From an uncultured Parasphingopyxis sp. (GTDB lineage Bacteria > Pseudomonadota > Alphaproteobacteria > Sphingomonadales > Sphingomonadaceae), in contig CAJQMX010000131.1 in the NCBI GenBank assembly GCA_905479515.1, forward strand, positions 1 through 11,062: 11,062 nt of DNA, written 5' to 3'. The notes under the pieces are model-generated. The model ran no database searches. It worked only from the letters and a program-made list of their open reading frames with translations, and was not told where the DNA came from. The position numbers were made by a program, and so were the translations under genes. Each line of letters begins with the position of its first letter. The stretch's first letter is position 1. This document shows, piece by piece, positions 3,203 to 6,835 of the stretch.

Positions 3203-3224
3203 CATAGAGCAATCAAACGAATTC

Positions 3225-3230
3225 AAAGGA
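3225..3230 (+). promoter_or_regulatory. Shine-Dalgarno AAAGGA for the radical SAM gene
   Basis: AAAGGA is followed by seven bases and then ATC at 3238-3240. The spacing is ideal, and no ATG, GTG or TTG is available in the frame upstream of the conserved N-terminal region. The site therefore decides the unusual start proposed for the radical SAM gene. Confidence 0.6.
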
Positions 3231-3237
3231 CAGCCCC

Positions 3238-4218
3238 ATCGCCACAAAGCCCCTTCCCGGCCCTTCGCCATTTGAAATCGCCGACGCCGTTCCTCTGGAT
3301 ACCACAAAGTTCCAGGATCCGGCGGTAACGGCGCAAGGTGAAGCACGGGCGCATGTTGCACTCGCCCAACTCGAAACGCTCTGGTTCAACACCGGAACGC
3401 TGTGCAACCTTGCCTGCAAGAGCTGCTATATCGAAAGCTCGCCGACCAATGATGCGCTCGTCTATCTGACCGCCGCAGAGGTCGATGCGTATCTCGACGA
3501 GATTGCGCAAGACGGGCTGGGCACGCGTGAGATCGGCTTTACCGGCGGCGAACCCTTCATGAACCGCGACATGATCCCGATGCTCGAAAGCTGCCTCGCG
3601 CGGGGTTTCGAGGCGCTCGTGCTGACCAATGCGATGCGCCCGATGCGGCGTTTCGAAGCGGCGCTGCTTGATCTCAACGCGCGATTTGGCGAGCGGATGA
3701 CGTTTCGCGTCAGTCTCGACCATTATACGCAAACCGCCCATGAAGCCGAGCGCGGCGGAGATAGCTGGGACATAGCTATTGCCGGGCTGCAATGGCTATC
3801 CACCAACGGCCTGTCCATTGCCGTTGCCGGGCGCCACCTGGCGCACGAGGATGATGCGATGGCGCGCAAGGGCTATGCAGCGCTATTCGCCGCAACCGGC
3901 ATCGATATCGACGCCAATGATGCGGCCCGCCTCGTGCTCTTTCCGGAGATGGATGCGACGCTCGATGTTGCCGAAATCACCACCGCCTGTTGGGGTATTC
4001 TGGACGTCGACCCGAACGCCATGATGTGTGCCTCGAGCCGGATGGTGGTCAAGCATAAGGGCGCAGACCGGCCAATGGTCACGGCCTGCACATTGCTACC
4101 CTATGGCGATGATTTTCAGATGGGCGAAACATTGGCGGAAGCGAGCCGCGATGTGTCGCTCAACCACCCGCATTGTTCGCGCTTCTGCGTGCTTGGCGGG
4201 GCGAGCTGTTCAGGCTAG
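3238..4218 (+). CDS. Radical SAM protein with C-terminal auxiliary-cluster cysteines; apparent ATC start
   Basis: The cluster motif CNLACKSC (Cys56, Cys60, Cys63, CxxxCxxC) follows LWFNTG and precedes YIESSPTND. FTGGEPF, the GGE motif that holds the SAM methionine, follows about 45 residues later. The C-terminal third has cysteines at 251, 264, 284, 313, 317 and 324, ending HCSRFCVLGGASCSG, which suggests a SPASM/twitch-like auxiliary iron-sulfur cluster. The reaction is unknown. It does not look like ArsS of arsenosugar synthesis, whose motif I recall as CNxxCxHCH. The frame opens at 3208, after TAG, and contains no ATG, GTG or TTG before the conserved PFEIADAVPLD segment. ATC at 3238, seven bases after AAAGGA, is the best start; an ATG lost by mutation or read error is the alternative. 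An internal ATG at 3559 would remove the cluster motif and is rejected. The length is 326 residues. Confidence 0.82.
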   Translation: MATKPLPGPSPFEIADAVPLDTTKFQDPAVTAQGEARAHVALAQLETLWFNTGTLCNLACKSCYIESSPTNDALVYLTAAEVDAYLDEIAQDGLGTREIGFTGGEPFMNRDMIPMLESCLARGFEALVLTNAMRPMRRFEAALLDLNARFGERMTFRVSLDHYTQTAHEAERGGDSWDIAIAGLQWLSTNGLSIAVAGRHLAHEDDAMARKGYAALFAATGIDIDANDAARLVLFPEMDATLDVAEITTACWGILDVDPNAMMCASSRMVVKHKGADRPMVTACTLLPYGDDFQMGETLAEASRDVSLNHPHCSRFCVLGGASCSG

Positions 4219-4223
4219 TTTAG

Positions 4224-4356
4224 GTCAGAATTTCCTTTGCAGGAAATCGCCGCACCAGCCCACTCCCCCTCCCGACCTCCCAATCAGGGTACACTCATGG
4301 GAGGTCGGGAGGGGGAGCGGGCCGGTGCGGCGCTCAACCGATAGGTTGAGTCTGAC
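4224..4356. repeat. Four-way cloverleaf repeat, long form, between convergent genes
   Basis: The element divides into contiguous parts with no unpaired base at the junction. A closing stem is formed by GTCAGA (4224-4229) and TCTGAC (4351-4356). Arm 1 is ATTTCCT-TTGC-AGGAAAT (4230-4247). Arm 2 is a 35-bp stem (4248-4282 with 4298-4332) with two mismatches and a 15-base loop. Arm 3 is CTCAACC-GATA-GGTTGAG (4333-4350). It begins 5 bases after the radical SAM stop codon and ends 2 bases before the mtnP stop codon, so it fills the convergent gap. It probably stops transcription from both sides, although no T-run follows the hairpins. Its outer parts recur at 5785-5828. It may be a non-autonomous mobile or REP-like repeat. 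Confidence 0.85.
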
Positions 4357-4358
4357 AA

Positions 4359-5243
4359 TCAACCTTTTCGCGCAGCAAACACCCGTTTTCCAACCGCATC
4401 CAGTTTCGCCATCAACCCGTGATCCGCAACCGCCAGATCCGTCAGCAGCGAATAATCGAGCACGGTATCAATTGGGTTGGCCGGCCGCTCATCAGGCAGA
4501 GCCTTGGCGAATTCGACAAGCGTCTGCGCCGCTGTCGCGGCATTGGCGCGCATCTGTTCGAGGACATTATGGACCTCGACATTGTCCGTGCCATCGCGCC
4601 AGCAATCATAATCCGTGACCATCGCGATCAGCGCATAGGGAAGCTCCGCCTCCCGCGCCAGTTTGGCCTCGGGCATTGCCGTCATGCCGATCACATCGCA
4701 GCCCCATTGGCGATAGAGCTCGCTTTCGGCGCGGGAGGAGAATTGCGGGCCTTCCATCGCCAGATAGGTCGCACCGCGATGCACATCCGCGCCAGCCGCT
4801 CTCGCCGCTGCCTCTGCCTGATCAGACAGGCCGGGACAGACGGGGTCAGCCATTGAAACATGGGCGACCAGCCCGGCCCCGAAAAAGCTCTTCTCGCGCG
4901 CAAAGGTGCGGTCGATAAACTGGTCAACGACAACGAATTTGCCGGGAGGGAGGTCCTCACGCAGCGAACCACAGGCGGAGATCGAGACAAGATCTGTGCA
5001 GCCAGCACGCTTCAGCGCATCAATATTGGCGCGGAAATTCAGGGCGCTTGGCGGGATGCGATGGCCTTTGCCGTGGCGCGGCAGGAAGACGAAGCGTTTG
5101 CCGGCAATCTCGCCCAGGACAAGCTCATCCGATGCCTCGCCCCAGGGGCTTTCGACCCGGATCGACTGGGCATTTTCCAGCGCATCAATCGAATAAAGCC
5201 CCGAACCGCCGACAACGCCGATTACCCATTCCTTATCGCTCAT
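4359..5243 (-). CDS. mtnP: S-methyl-5'-thioadenosine phosphorylase
   Basis: A 294-residue cytoplasmic phosphorylase that splits 5'-methylthioadenosine with phosphate into adenine and 5-methylthioribose-1-phosphate, for methionine and adenine salvage. Visible family motifs are GGSG at 12-15 (phosphate loop), LPRHGKGH near 54-61, the IDRTFAREKSFF segment near 110-121, AMEGPQFSSRAE near 162-173, GMTAMPEAKLARE near 186-198 and TDYDCW near 210-215, whose two Asp residues contact adenine. The length is normal. The start ATG has GGAG/AAGG close upstream. The stop lies 2 bases from the cloverleaf repeat. The gene reads toward the radical SAM gene. Most bacteria with this enzyme use it in general metabolism. 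Its place beside two SAM-consuming enzymes also allows a role in removing 5'-deoxyadenosine or processing an adenosylated product; that is inference. Confidence 0.93.
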   Translation of the reverse strand: MSDKEWVIGVVGGSGLYSIDALENAQSIRVESPWGEASDELVLGEIAGKRFVFLPRHGKGHRIPPSALNFRANIDALKRAGCTDLVSISACGSLREDLPPGKFVVVDQFIDRTFAREKSFFGAGLVAHVSMADPVCPGLSDQAEAAARAAGADVHRGATYLAMEGPQFSSRAESELYRQWGCDVIGMTAMPEAKLAREAELPYALIAMVTDYDCWRDGTDNVEVHNVLEQMRANAATAAQTLVEFAKALPDERPANPIDTVLDYSLLTDLAVADHGLMAKLDAVGKRVFAARKG

Positions 5244-5347: not shown

Positions 5348-5782
5348 ATGCATTTCATTCGGCGGCTGGCGACAGCATGCATTGCGATACTGGCGATCCA
5401 GTCGGTCCCGGCCTCTGCCCAATCGAGCATCACCGGCAACTGGCTGTCCGAAGGCGGCAAGGCGATTGTCGCGATTTCGCGCTGTGGCAGCAATATTTGC
5501 GGACGGATTACGCGCGTCCTTGTGCGCACTCCCGATGCGGACCAGCGCGACGTCAATAATCCGGACGCCAGCCTGCGCAGCCGCCCAATCGAGGGTCTGC
5601 GCATATTGTCAGGCTTCCGGCTCGATGGCGACCAGTATCGCCACGGCCAGATCTACGACCCCGAAAGCGGACGCAGCTACAATGCGCGGCTAAGGCTGAA
5701 CAGCAACGGCTCCCTGCGCGTCACGGGCTGCCTGTCGATAGGCTGGCCCTGTCAGTCACAGACATGGACCCGGCGGCGCTGA
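5348..5782 (+). CDS. Secreted DUF2147 domain protein
   Basis: A 144-residue protein with a clear signal peptide: positively charged MHFIRR, a hydrophobic core ATACIAILAIQSV, and cleavage likely after PASA. The mature part has the DUF2147 pattern: ITGNWLSEGGKAIVAI, two cysteines in CGSNICGRI, a D..NPD..LRSRP segment, a GQIYDPESG motif, and a C-terminal GCLSIGWPCQSQTWTR. The family is small, periplasmic and of uncertain function; a lipocalin-like beta fold is plausible. The gene stands alone, divergent from mtnP across 104 bases and convergent with the hydrolase gene. Its stop codon is 2 to 3 bases from the short copy of the structured repeat. I saw no clear promoter box in the divergent gap. 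Confidence 0.88.
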   Translation: MHFIRRLATACIAILAIQSVPASAQSSITGNWLSEGGKAIVAISRCGSNICGRITRVLVRTPDADQRDVNNPDASLRSRPIEGLRILSGFRLDGDQYRHGQIYDPESGRSYNARLRLNSNGSLRVTGCLSIGWPCQSQTWTRRR

Positions 5783-5784
5783 TT

Positions 5785-5828
5785 TGTCAGAATTTCCTTG
5801 GCAGGAAATCGCCAGGTTGAGTCTGACA
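5785..5828. repeat. Short form of the structured repeat, between convergent genes
   Basis: TGTCAGA (5785-5791) and TCTGACA (5822-5828) form a 7-bp closing stem around ATTTCCT-TGGC-AGGAAAT (5792-5809), then CGCC and AGGTTGAG. Compared with 4224-4357 the first 28 bases differ at one loop position and the last 15 are identical. The large central arm and the left half of arm 3 (91 bases, corresponding to 4252-4342) are missing. It fills the gap between the DUF2147 stop and the hydrolase stop, with about 2 bases to spare on each side, and may act as a two-way terminator. Confidence 0.82.
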
Positions 5829-5830
5829 GA

Positions 5831-6835
5831 CTAAGCCTTCACCACTTCCTGTTCGATAGTGCCAAACGTGGGATGGCCATGCTCGTCTTCCATCCAGATG
5901 CGCACCGTATCGCCATGGGAGAGGAAGGGTGTTTTCATCTCGCCTTCAAGGATCTTCTCAACCATCCGCACTTCGGCGAGGCAGCTATACCCCTTGCCGC
6001 CCTGATCGATCGGCTTGCCCGGTCCGCCATCCGCATCGCGGTTTGAAACCGTCCCCGAACCGATGATCGAACCGGCAACCAGAGCCCGCGTCTTGGCGAG
6101 ATGGGCGACGAGCGTGCCGAAATCGAAGGTCATATCCTCGCCCGCATCTGCACGGCCAAAAGGCTTGCCATTCAGGTCGACATTGAGCGCACCGTGCAGC
6201 TTGCCGTCTTTCCAGTTCGGCAGCGTTTCAGGCGTCACGAACACCGGCGAAAAGGCGCTGGCCGGTTTGGACTGGACGAAGCCAAAGCCCTTGCCGAGTT
6301 CGGCCGGGATCAGGTTGCGCAAAGACACATCATTGACGAGGCCGATCAGCCGGATCGCGCCCAGCGCCTCGTCACGGCTCGCACCCTGCGGCACATCGCC
6401 GGTGACAACGACAATCTCTGCCTCGAGATCGCAGCCCCATGCTTCATCCGGTAGGGGGATGGCGTCGCGCGGACCGATAAAGCCGTCCGAACCGCCCTGA
6501 TACATTAGCGGGTCTTCCCAGAAACTGTCAGGAATCTCCGCGCCGCGCGCTTTGCGCACCAGCTCGACATGATTCACATAGGCCGAGCCATCCGCCCATT
6601 GATAGGCGCGCGGCAGAGGCGATGCGGCATCATGTTCGTGAAACCGTTCCTTGGGGATCGCTTCATGCGCAAGGTCCGTCGCCAGAAGCTCAAGCTGCGG
6701 CGCGACCGTATCCCAGTCATCAAGCGCGGCCTGCAAGGTCGGGGCGATGTGCGATGCATCCGCACACCAGGCGAGATCATGGCTGACAACAACAAGTTTT
6801 CCATCACGGCCAGCCTTGAGCGATCCCAGTTTCAT
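5831..6835 (-). CDS. Fumarylacetoacetate hydrolase family protein (fumarylacetoacetase-like)
   Basis: A 334-residue metal-dependent C-C bond hydrolase of the FAH fold. The N-terminal MKLGSLKAGRDGKLVVVS opens an accessory domain typical of the short bacterial fumarylacetoacetase group. The catalytic domain shows WGCDLEAEIVVVTGD, with Glu138 and Glu140 as metal ligands, LVNDVSLR with Asp169, FVQSKPASAFSPVFVTPE, and GSGTVSN near 260-266. In this group the enzyme ends tyrosine or homogentisate breakdown by splitting fumarylacetoacetate; related acyl-pyruvate substrates are possible. No other tyrosine-degradation gene is in view, so the substrate is uncertain. The ATG at 6835 is chosen because AGGAG lies six bases upstream. 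A longer frame reaching 6892 adds 19 residues unlike the family. It may be cotranscribed with the membrane protein gene that ends 69 bases upstream. Confidence 0.88.
   Translation of the reverse strand: MKLGSLKAGRDGKLVVVSHDLAWCADASHIAPTLQAALDDWDTVAPQLELLATDLAHEAIPKERFHEHDAASPLPRAYQWADGSAYVNHVELVRKARGAEIPDSFWEDPLMYQGGSDGFIGPRDAIPLPDEAWGCDLEAEIVVVTGDVPQGASRDEALGAIRLIGLVNDVSLRNLIPAELGKGFGFVQSKPASAFSPVFVTPETLPNWKDGKLHGALNVDLNGKPFGRADAGEDMTFDFGTLVAHLAKTRALVAGSIIGSGTVSNRDADGGPGKPIDQGGKGYSCLAEVRMVEKILEGEMKTPFLSHGDTVRIWMEDEHGHPTFGTIEQEVVKA

Follow-up and report, generated by a model that had tools for sequence, protein, structure and literature searches.

The 133-bp element at positions 4224-4356 of the window, i.e., of the whole 11,062-nucleotide stretch of DNA analyzed here, is one member of a dispersed family of cloverleaf repeats. 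With a probability of roughly 0.6, we consider it to be a REP-like, non-autonomous dispersed DNA repeat of the Sphingomonadaceae that is kept as a DNA structure. An earlier note, made from the letters of the window alone, had left the choice between a structure recognized as DNA, a structure recognized as RNA and a non-autonomous mobile repeat; the existence of the family and the two-sided changes in its stems favor a DNA structure and mobile repeat as the best reading. The 133 bp delimited in that note are a real copy, but they do not represent the elementary unit, because the cloverleaf is built from two 33-bp units and a core and can be nested in further units.

The Element and Its Surroundings

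The features of the window are as follows:

3559-4218, plus strand: left neighbor, radical SAM-like open reading frame, stop codon 5 bases from the element
4224-4229: GTCAGA, the 5' half of the closing stem, where the left unit ends; base-paired to 4351-4356 in the minimum-free-energy (MFE) fold of both strands
4230-4247: hairpin A, ATTTCC class (class name coined here), 7 bp with a TTGC loop of 4 nt
4248-4282: arm B, 5' side, C-rich, inverted repeat of 35 nt with 94% complementarity; the left 33-bp unit extends through its first 9 bases, CGCCGCACC
4283-4297: loop of arm B, 15 nt, ATCAGGGTACACTCA
4298-4332: arm B, 3' side, G-rich, inverted repeat; its last 9 bases, GGTGCGGCG, are part of the right unit
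4333-4350: hairpin C, CTCGACC class (class name coined here), 7 bp with a GATA loop (read inward: TATC)
4351-4356: TCTGAC, the 3' half of the closing stem, where the right unit ends; MFE pairing with 4224-4229
4359-5243, minus strand: right neighbor, S-methyl-5'-thioadenosine phosphorylase (MTAP), TIGR01694 above cut-off, stop codon 2 bases from the element
5786-5828: partial copy, 43 bp, two direct-repeat blocks that are 96% and 86% identical to the element

The element thus occupies the gap between two convergent genes. The left open reading frame has a weak match to NF049973 that stays below the cut-off, and no Pfam match. Its frame is open further upstream (3208-3558) without an ATG, GTG or TTG start, which reflects either an unusual start or a sequence error; this upstream part contains a CxxxCxxC stretch that we take to be the radical SAM motif.

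On either strand, the 133 bases have as their MFE DNA fold exactly the gap-free four-way cloverleaf claimed in the earlier note (-60.2 and -64.5 kcal/mol), with zero unpaired bases at the junction. Arm B as a whole (4248-4332) contributes 35 pairs, including two A.C mismatches on the plus strand. Shuffled sequences reach mean energies of only -21.8 and -21.2 kcal/mol, and none of the 200 shuffles folds as well as the element on either strand, which corresponds to z values of -13.7 and -15.8 and confirms that the fold stands out from shuffled sequence. When folded as RNA together with its flanks, the element is also very stable (z -11.7).

The note had further concluded that the element is not a tRNA, and in agreement with this, no structured-RNA family reaches its gathering score in the window. 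A tRNA-like or otherwise known structured RNA was therefore rejected; the matches below threshold are mostly hairpins of microRNA precursors.

Units, Hairpin Classes and Composites

The cloverleaf consists of two inward-facing units of 33 bp around a conserved core arm of 35 bp. Each unit is composed of GTCAGA, a hairpin of 17-20 nt (typically 18 nt) and the sequence CGCSGCACC. Searching for this exact pattern, which undercounts diverged units, yielded 155 units in G249, 46 in G087, 5 in G155 and 6 in G208, while the reversed pattern had no match in any of these four genomes. A looser unit finder, run on 800 kb from G249 and G087, recovered 142 units, compared with none on one strand of a single shuffled 360-kb stretch. 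By nearest reference, the stems were assigned to five classes, named here ATTTCC, ACGTTGC, AACTTC, CCTTCG and CTCGACC. Read inward, the 4-nt loop has the form T..C (on the opposite strand, G..A) in 115 of the 126 hairpins that are 18 nt long, and in 111 of the 134 hairpins of 67 full copies.

The 800 kb contain 59 composites, namely 11 single units and 48 assemblies with between two and five units. Every one of the 48 multi-unit composites has its units facing inward, with left units pointing rightward and right units leftward, and further units nest outside the core cloverleaf in the same inward sense. Neighboring units on the same strand are mostly spaced by 44-45 bp (25 of 34). A T-rich border of about 7 bases outside the outermost GTCAGA is conserved as well, and conservation fades beyond it (107 flanks). 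Fourteen unit sequences are each found in identical form at 2-5 positions, and identical imperfect units occur at several positions of one genome with different partners, which suggests an exchange of halves by way of the shared core. Of the 109 TTGTCAGA words in the 800 kb, 16 lie outside recognized units (10.7 expected by chance), and several of these are degenerate units. This count bears on a possible MITE of a DDE transposase, which would share its terminal inverted repeats with an autonomous element and would produce a target duplication.

Some copies carry an extra hairpin module (approximately GATGGCA...TGCCATC) inside the core arm, as observed at G249:C1 2706398 and 2711705 and at G087:C1 1955396 and 1998628. 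A G-quadruplex pattern was also noticed: of the 67 genus copies, 61 match it in the 3' core arm (window 4298-4332) and 65 in the 5' core arm read on the opposite strand. Among 38 copies from outside the genus, a set chosen with a GC-rich pattern, both arms match it in 36. The adjacent C-rich arm is expected to outcompete a G-quadruplex in the core arm.

Distribution of the Family

A covariance model was built from 67 copies, 66 of them from nine genomes of the genus plus the copy in the window, where the model recognizes one full copy (4224-4356) on both strands. It matches all ten genus genomes, with full-length places in nine; for G384, the presence of matches is recorded without their extent. 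Among 397 genomes sampled from the Sphingomonadaceae, 170 contain matches (eight candidates scored per genome, strict filters, both strands counted), and a plain DNA search with two candidates scored per genome detected 131 of the 397. In a class-wide draw that includes the Sphingomonadaceae, 30 of 385 genomes are matched. Copies from outside the genus frequently lack one or both side hairpins and so form an incomplete cloverleaf, as seen on inspection rather than by counting. An AGGRTAC-like motif in the loop of arm B is recurrent in many copies, including those from outside the genus.

Annotated phages did not contain a match to the element. Core copies are present in eight IMG/VR contigs (L006-L013); by eye, some of them are located just upstream of a start codon, and those in L010 and L012 apparently occupy the same site in front of a similar gene. 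Three viral contigs retrieved by the initial pattern were discarded, because they share one unrelated sequence and are not copies of the element. Two plasmid records match the element and none matches the 55-bp sequence surrounding the partial copy. Sequence and keyword searches of the literature, with partial coverage, did not retrieve an earlier description of this repeat family.

Maintenance of Pairing by Two-Sided Changes

Across the 67 distinct copies, 96.9% of 3,683 cells are paired, compared with 84.1% after column shuffles and with 37.7-46.1% when the partners are slid by one to three columns. The closing stem is paired in 99.8% and arm B in 97.5% of cases. Changes on both sides affect 24 pairs (shuffle mean 19.2) and 463 cells (shuffle mean 156), including all 14 pairs of hairpins A and C (7 each), and covariation amounts to 0.323 versus 0.097 in shuffles. 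A weaker measure of covariation, counting further standard pair types, gives 61 versus 56.3 in shuffles and is reached by 21 of 500 shuffles. Further copies and compensatory stem changes, by which the earlier note expected a selected family to be recognized, are both present: copies in the 170 matched genomes, and two-sided changes in these 24 pairs and 463 cells. Neither of the outcomes that the note had set against its own reading, an absence of copies in relatives or a decay of stems without compensation, was observed.

Departures on one side only comprise 31 G.T, 38 A.C and 77 other combinations. For 17 copies in tandem contexts, the strand that is transcribed shows 12 G.T, 12 A.C and 20 other departures; the G.T and A.C numbers are low throughout, and related copies do not count as independent observations. 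As judged from these alignments, the lack of a wobble preference speaks for a structure that would be maintained as DNA, or by arm-to-arm correction, rather than as RNA.

Placement at Gene Ends

The enrichment at convergent gene ends that the earlier note had anticipated is apparent from the gene contexts determined with a home-made gene finder in the 800 kb of G249 and G087. The 59 composites are located in 31 convergent, 25 tandem and 3 divergent contexts, compared with 140, 501 and 139 of the 780 background gene junctions. Composites lie at a median distance of 19 bp from the neighboring stop codon, with a range of 2-827 bp, and only 1 of 142 units extends more than 10 bp into a predicted gene.

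This proximity to stop codons and the enrichment between convergent genes, together with the very stable RNA fold, would be in line with an RNA element that spread because it is useful, i.e., a bidirectional 3'-end structure that stabilizes mRNA or stops convergent transcription. We regard this possibility as unlikely, since G.U pairs are not preferred over A.C, even when the strand transcribed in tandem contexts is considered, where the cells are few, and since no Rfam family is matched at gathering score. In addition, positions 4100-4500 of the window do not contain a terminator-like site with a hairpin and a T tract, and an intrinsic terminator (GC hairpin and T tract) was rejected on the same basis. 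Other kinds of REP occupy the same positions, and the authors of that work see a hint of RNA roles in this (PMC3733652, in part).

Site History and Remnants

The site next to MTAP can be followed through the genus, because matches to this protein are present in 9 of 10 genomes with 78-91% identity to the protein of the window. In G249, the 3' end of the gene is followed by a complete element whose two hairpin classes are those of the window copy but whose stems have changed (ATTTCGC/GCGAAAT versus ATTTCCT/AGGAAAT, and CTCGACC versus CTCAACC). Most of the core is lost in G315, and a decayed stump is left in G087. By eye, no element is seen 3' of MTAP in G364, G285, G155 and G343; the gene has a different neighbor in G208, and the contig ends at this place in G403. 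Sites such as this one can stay filled across species, which suggests a slow turnover.

Filled and empty orthologous sites are seen between species, as would be expected for the mobile repeat proposed in the earlier note. Among 41 comparable gaps of G249 and G087, units are present only in G249 in 9 cases, only in G087 in 2, in both in 2 and in neither in 28, with decayed remnants, including those at the MTAP site and at 2583064, being scored as empty. At site 2994285, the flanking alignments directly abut in G087. No target duplication is readable at the filled and empty sites of G249 and G087, where the aligned DNA of the two species is mostly 70-89% identical. Because each species is represented by one genome, movement is deduced from such comparisons between species.

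At G249:C1 ~2583064-2583254 and G087:C1 1950979-1951064, the same two classes were observed in opposite order, as if by inversion or fresh insertion, and the copy in G087 is decayed. Another repeat-like stretch, GAGCCTGTCGAAG / GAGCTTGTCGAAGG, was noticed at gene ends, namely 3' of MTAP in G364 and at G087:C1 1987942-1988066.

The partial copy in the window (5786-5828), which is not mentioned in the earlier note, consists of GTCAGA, hairpin A, CGCC, AGGTTGAG and TCTGAC. It is devoid of arm B, retains one half of hairpin C and is a probable deletion remnant. It is flanked by convergent open reading frames for a DUF2147 protein and an FAA-hydrolase family protein, and the fold of the surrounding positions 5780-5834 has a z of -2.8. 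Similar remnants with a deleted core arm are present at several places in relatives. A bare palindrome, TTTGTCAGA-CTCGACC hairpin-TCTGACAAA, was observed at G249:C1 ~2912954-2912983 and is probably a minimal deletion product.

Remnants of this kind would also be expected from a fossil repeat, which has neither mobility nor function at present and whose palindromes persist only through arm-to-arm repair (hairpin gene conversion) until deletions remove them. The predominance of two-sided over one-sided changes is compatible with such a correction between arms. Nevertheless, a fossil appears quite improbable when the unit counts are considered (155 exact units in G249 versus 5 in G155 and 6 in G208, obtained with a pattern that undercounts diverged units). 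This contrast and the identical imperfect units at several positions argue for amplification within a lineage.

Unlike Partners in Paired Units

Not a single one of the 67 distinct full copies combines left and right hairpins of the same class, compared with 16.2 expected and a minimum of 5 in 20,000 permutations. These copies remained from 69 that were found, after two had been dropped from the pair test for their length (120 and 126 bp). The result is independent of the classes, because none of the 67 copies has two or fewer mismatches between its left and right stems (about 16 expected, minimum 4 in 5,000 permutations). For adjacent inner pairs of G249 and G087, a set that overlaps with the 67 distinct copies, 0 of 45 are of the same class; 10.0 are expected, and none of 20,000 permutations gave this result. 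Neighbors on the same side are also rarely alike (2 of 34 versus 7.2 expected), and when units 100-200 bp apart are loosely paired with the outer units included, 9 of 66 are of the same class versus 15.8 expected.

Exceptions exist. The composite at 1955396 of G087, which contains the extra hairpin inside its core, has two units of the ATTTCC class. Outside the genus, 2 of 38 distinct core copies, taken from 59 loci including viral contigs, have fully matching flanks; both are located at contig ends and could thus be assembly artefacts.

A like pair would form one near-perfect uninterrupted palindrome of about 130 bp. For the dimers of REP-like sequences, the literature offers no settled reason for the preference for unlike partners; it is said to have "no obvious explanation", and an escape from SbcCD was suggested (PMC3733652, in part). 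We searched ten genomes of the genus (G285, G249, G087, G208, G343, G155, G384, G403, G315 and G364) for both subunits. SbcC was not detected in any of them, with 12 of 14 controls being positive, and SbcD was not detected above cut-off, with one weak match and 13 of 14 positive controls (8 above cut-off). Caulobacter vibrioides, a control genome of the Y1 transposase search described below, is not among the positive controls, and genomes of the class may commonly lack SbcCD. It seems that a genus in which large palindromes abound is devoid of the SbcCD hairpin nuclease.

As SbcC and SbcD were not found above cut-off in the ten genomes, purging of same-class pairs by SbcCD is disfavored. The rule of unlike partners holds for 67 of 67 copies in this genus, and protection from SbcCD may therefore not suffice as an explanation.

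Possible Mobilizers and Proposed Mechanism

The earlier note had named a REP transposase among the proteins that could recognize the structure, which is not borne out by its distribution. The Y1 transposase domain PF01797 is present in 2 of 10 genus genomes, namely G315 and G403, and was not found in the copy-rich G249 or in G087. A reverse transcriptase was detected in 4 of 10 genus genomes, G249 not being among them. Because both enzymes are patchy in the genus and were not found in G249, they were rejected as the source of spread. The search for a Y2 transposase had no match in the ten genus genomes, and its control likewise gave no match.

This distribution also bears on the possibility that the family is a REPIN-type element dependent for its movement on a RAYT (Y1) transposase, which most genomes have lost or which acts from outside. 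The layout is similar, with an inverted palindromic pair, an extragenic location and compensatory changes (PMC3116915, in part), and a few genus genomes (the 2 of 10 mentioned above) do encode PF01797. Such an origin is nonetheless very doubtful, considering that PF01797 was not found in the genomes with 155 (G249) and 46 units (G087), that the foot of the hairpin carries no GTAG tag, and that the units of full copies are unlike, whereas REPINs are REP doublets that form one hairpin (PMC3116915, in part).

According to the preferred reading of a REP-like DNA repeat, the structure would be kept and copied as DNA, possibly as a single-strand hairpin or a cruciform. Half-elements would be shuffled via the shared core, either by recombination or by a trans-acting enzyme yet to be identified, and copies would persist at 3' ends, where they may do little harm. 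Pairs of the same class would be lost, possibly because they produce a single palindrome of about 130 bp with no interruption, or because the element requires the four-way junction as such. Deletion of the core arm would give rise to the remnants.

A bolder proposal is that the extruded four-way junction, with its obligatorily different side hairpins and its conserved core loop, serves as the substrate of a novel recombination or replication enzyme. The family would then constitute a new class of mobile DNA that grows by inward-facing units into a nested cloverleaf, an idea that we consider speculative and unlikely to hold.

The family represents a repeat for which a RAYT was not found in the copy-rich genomes and whose mobilizer is yet to be named. 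It also offers many natural variants for testing how palindromes are copied, purged and used.

Comparison with Known Repeat Systems

The RIME and ABC elements of rhizobia are mosaics of palindromic units between genes and resemble the present composites in this respect. The attC sites of integrons keep their structure while their sequence varies, and they are recognized as a folded single strand. Different from attC sites, the present copies are dispersed at gene ends and no integron array was seen. Composite mosaics of intergenic palindromic units are also typical of the BIMEs of enterobacteria. The units of BIMEs, however, alternate (PMC2817692, in part), whereas the present units face inward around one core, and right-facing units are followed by left-facing ones in 48 of 48 multi-unit composites.

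With GTAG REPs and REPINs, the family shares inverted pairs, single-strand hairpins and compensatory changes, and also composite clusters, some of which are formed by insertion into or beside existing ones (PMC3116915 and PMC8266576, both in part). The conserved flanks of the hairpin are GTCAGA and CGCSGCACC in place of GTAG. Because the paired units are unlike (same-class pairs 0 of 67), the fold is a four-way cloverleaf and not a single long hairpin as in REPINs. The Y1 gene that characterizes RAYT systems is limited to 2 of 10 genus genomes, with neither G249 nor G087 among them.

The family also resembles in its organization the CGTC REPs of alphaproteobacteria, which consist of short palindromic units, mostly in head-to-head dimers with conserved and sometimes structured spacers. 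They are extragenic, lie near 3' ends, have no dedicated transposase and have been reported in sphingomonads (PMC3733652, in part). An excess of heterodimers was already reported for several CGTC REP families (Di Nocera et al. 2013, PMC3733652, in part). In these REPs, CGTC (or TGTC/CCTC) is found at one end of a stem of 8-9 bp, almost always with A and T at its start, and with a CCA tail (PMC3733652, in part). The present unit instead has TGTCAGA, followed by a 7-bp stem of several classes and then CGC; TGTC is present within TGTCAGA, but not at the stem. As far as the available part of PMC3733652 allows the comparison, the family further differs by GTCAGA before and CGCSGCACC after the stem, by a spacer that is a conserved 35-bp arm, by unlike pairs in 67 of 67 copies, and by units that nest facing inward. 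The 33-bp unit itself agrees with the broad definition of REPs as palindromic, high-copy and extragenic sequences of 20-40 bp. The family is a REP in the broad sense, which lies outside the definitions of GTAG and CGTC REPs, REPINs and BIMEs.
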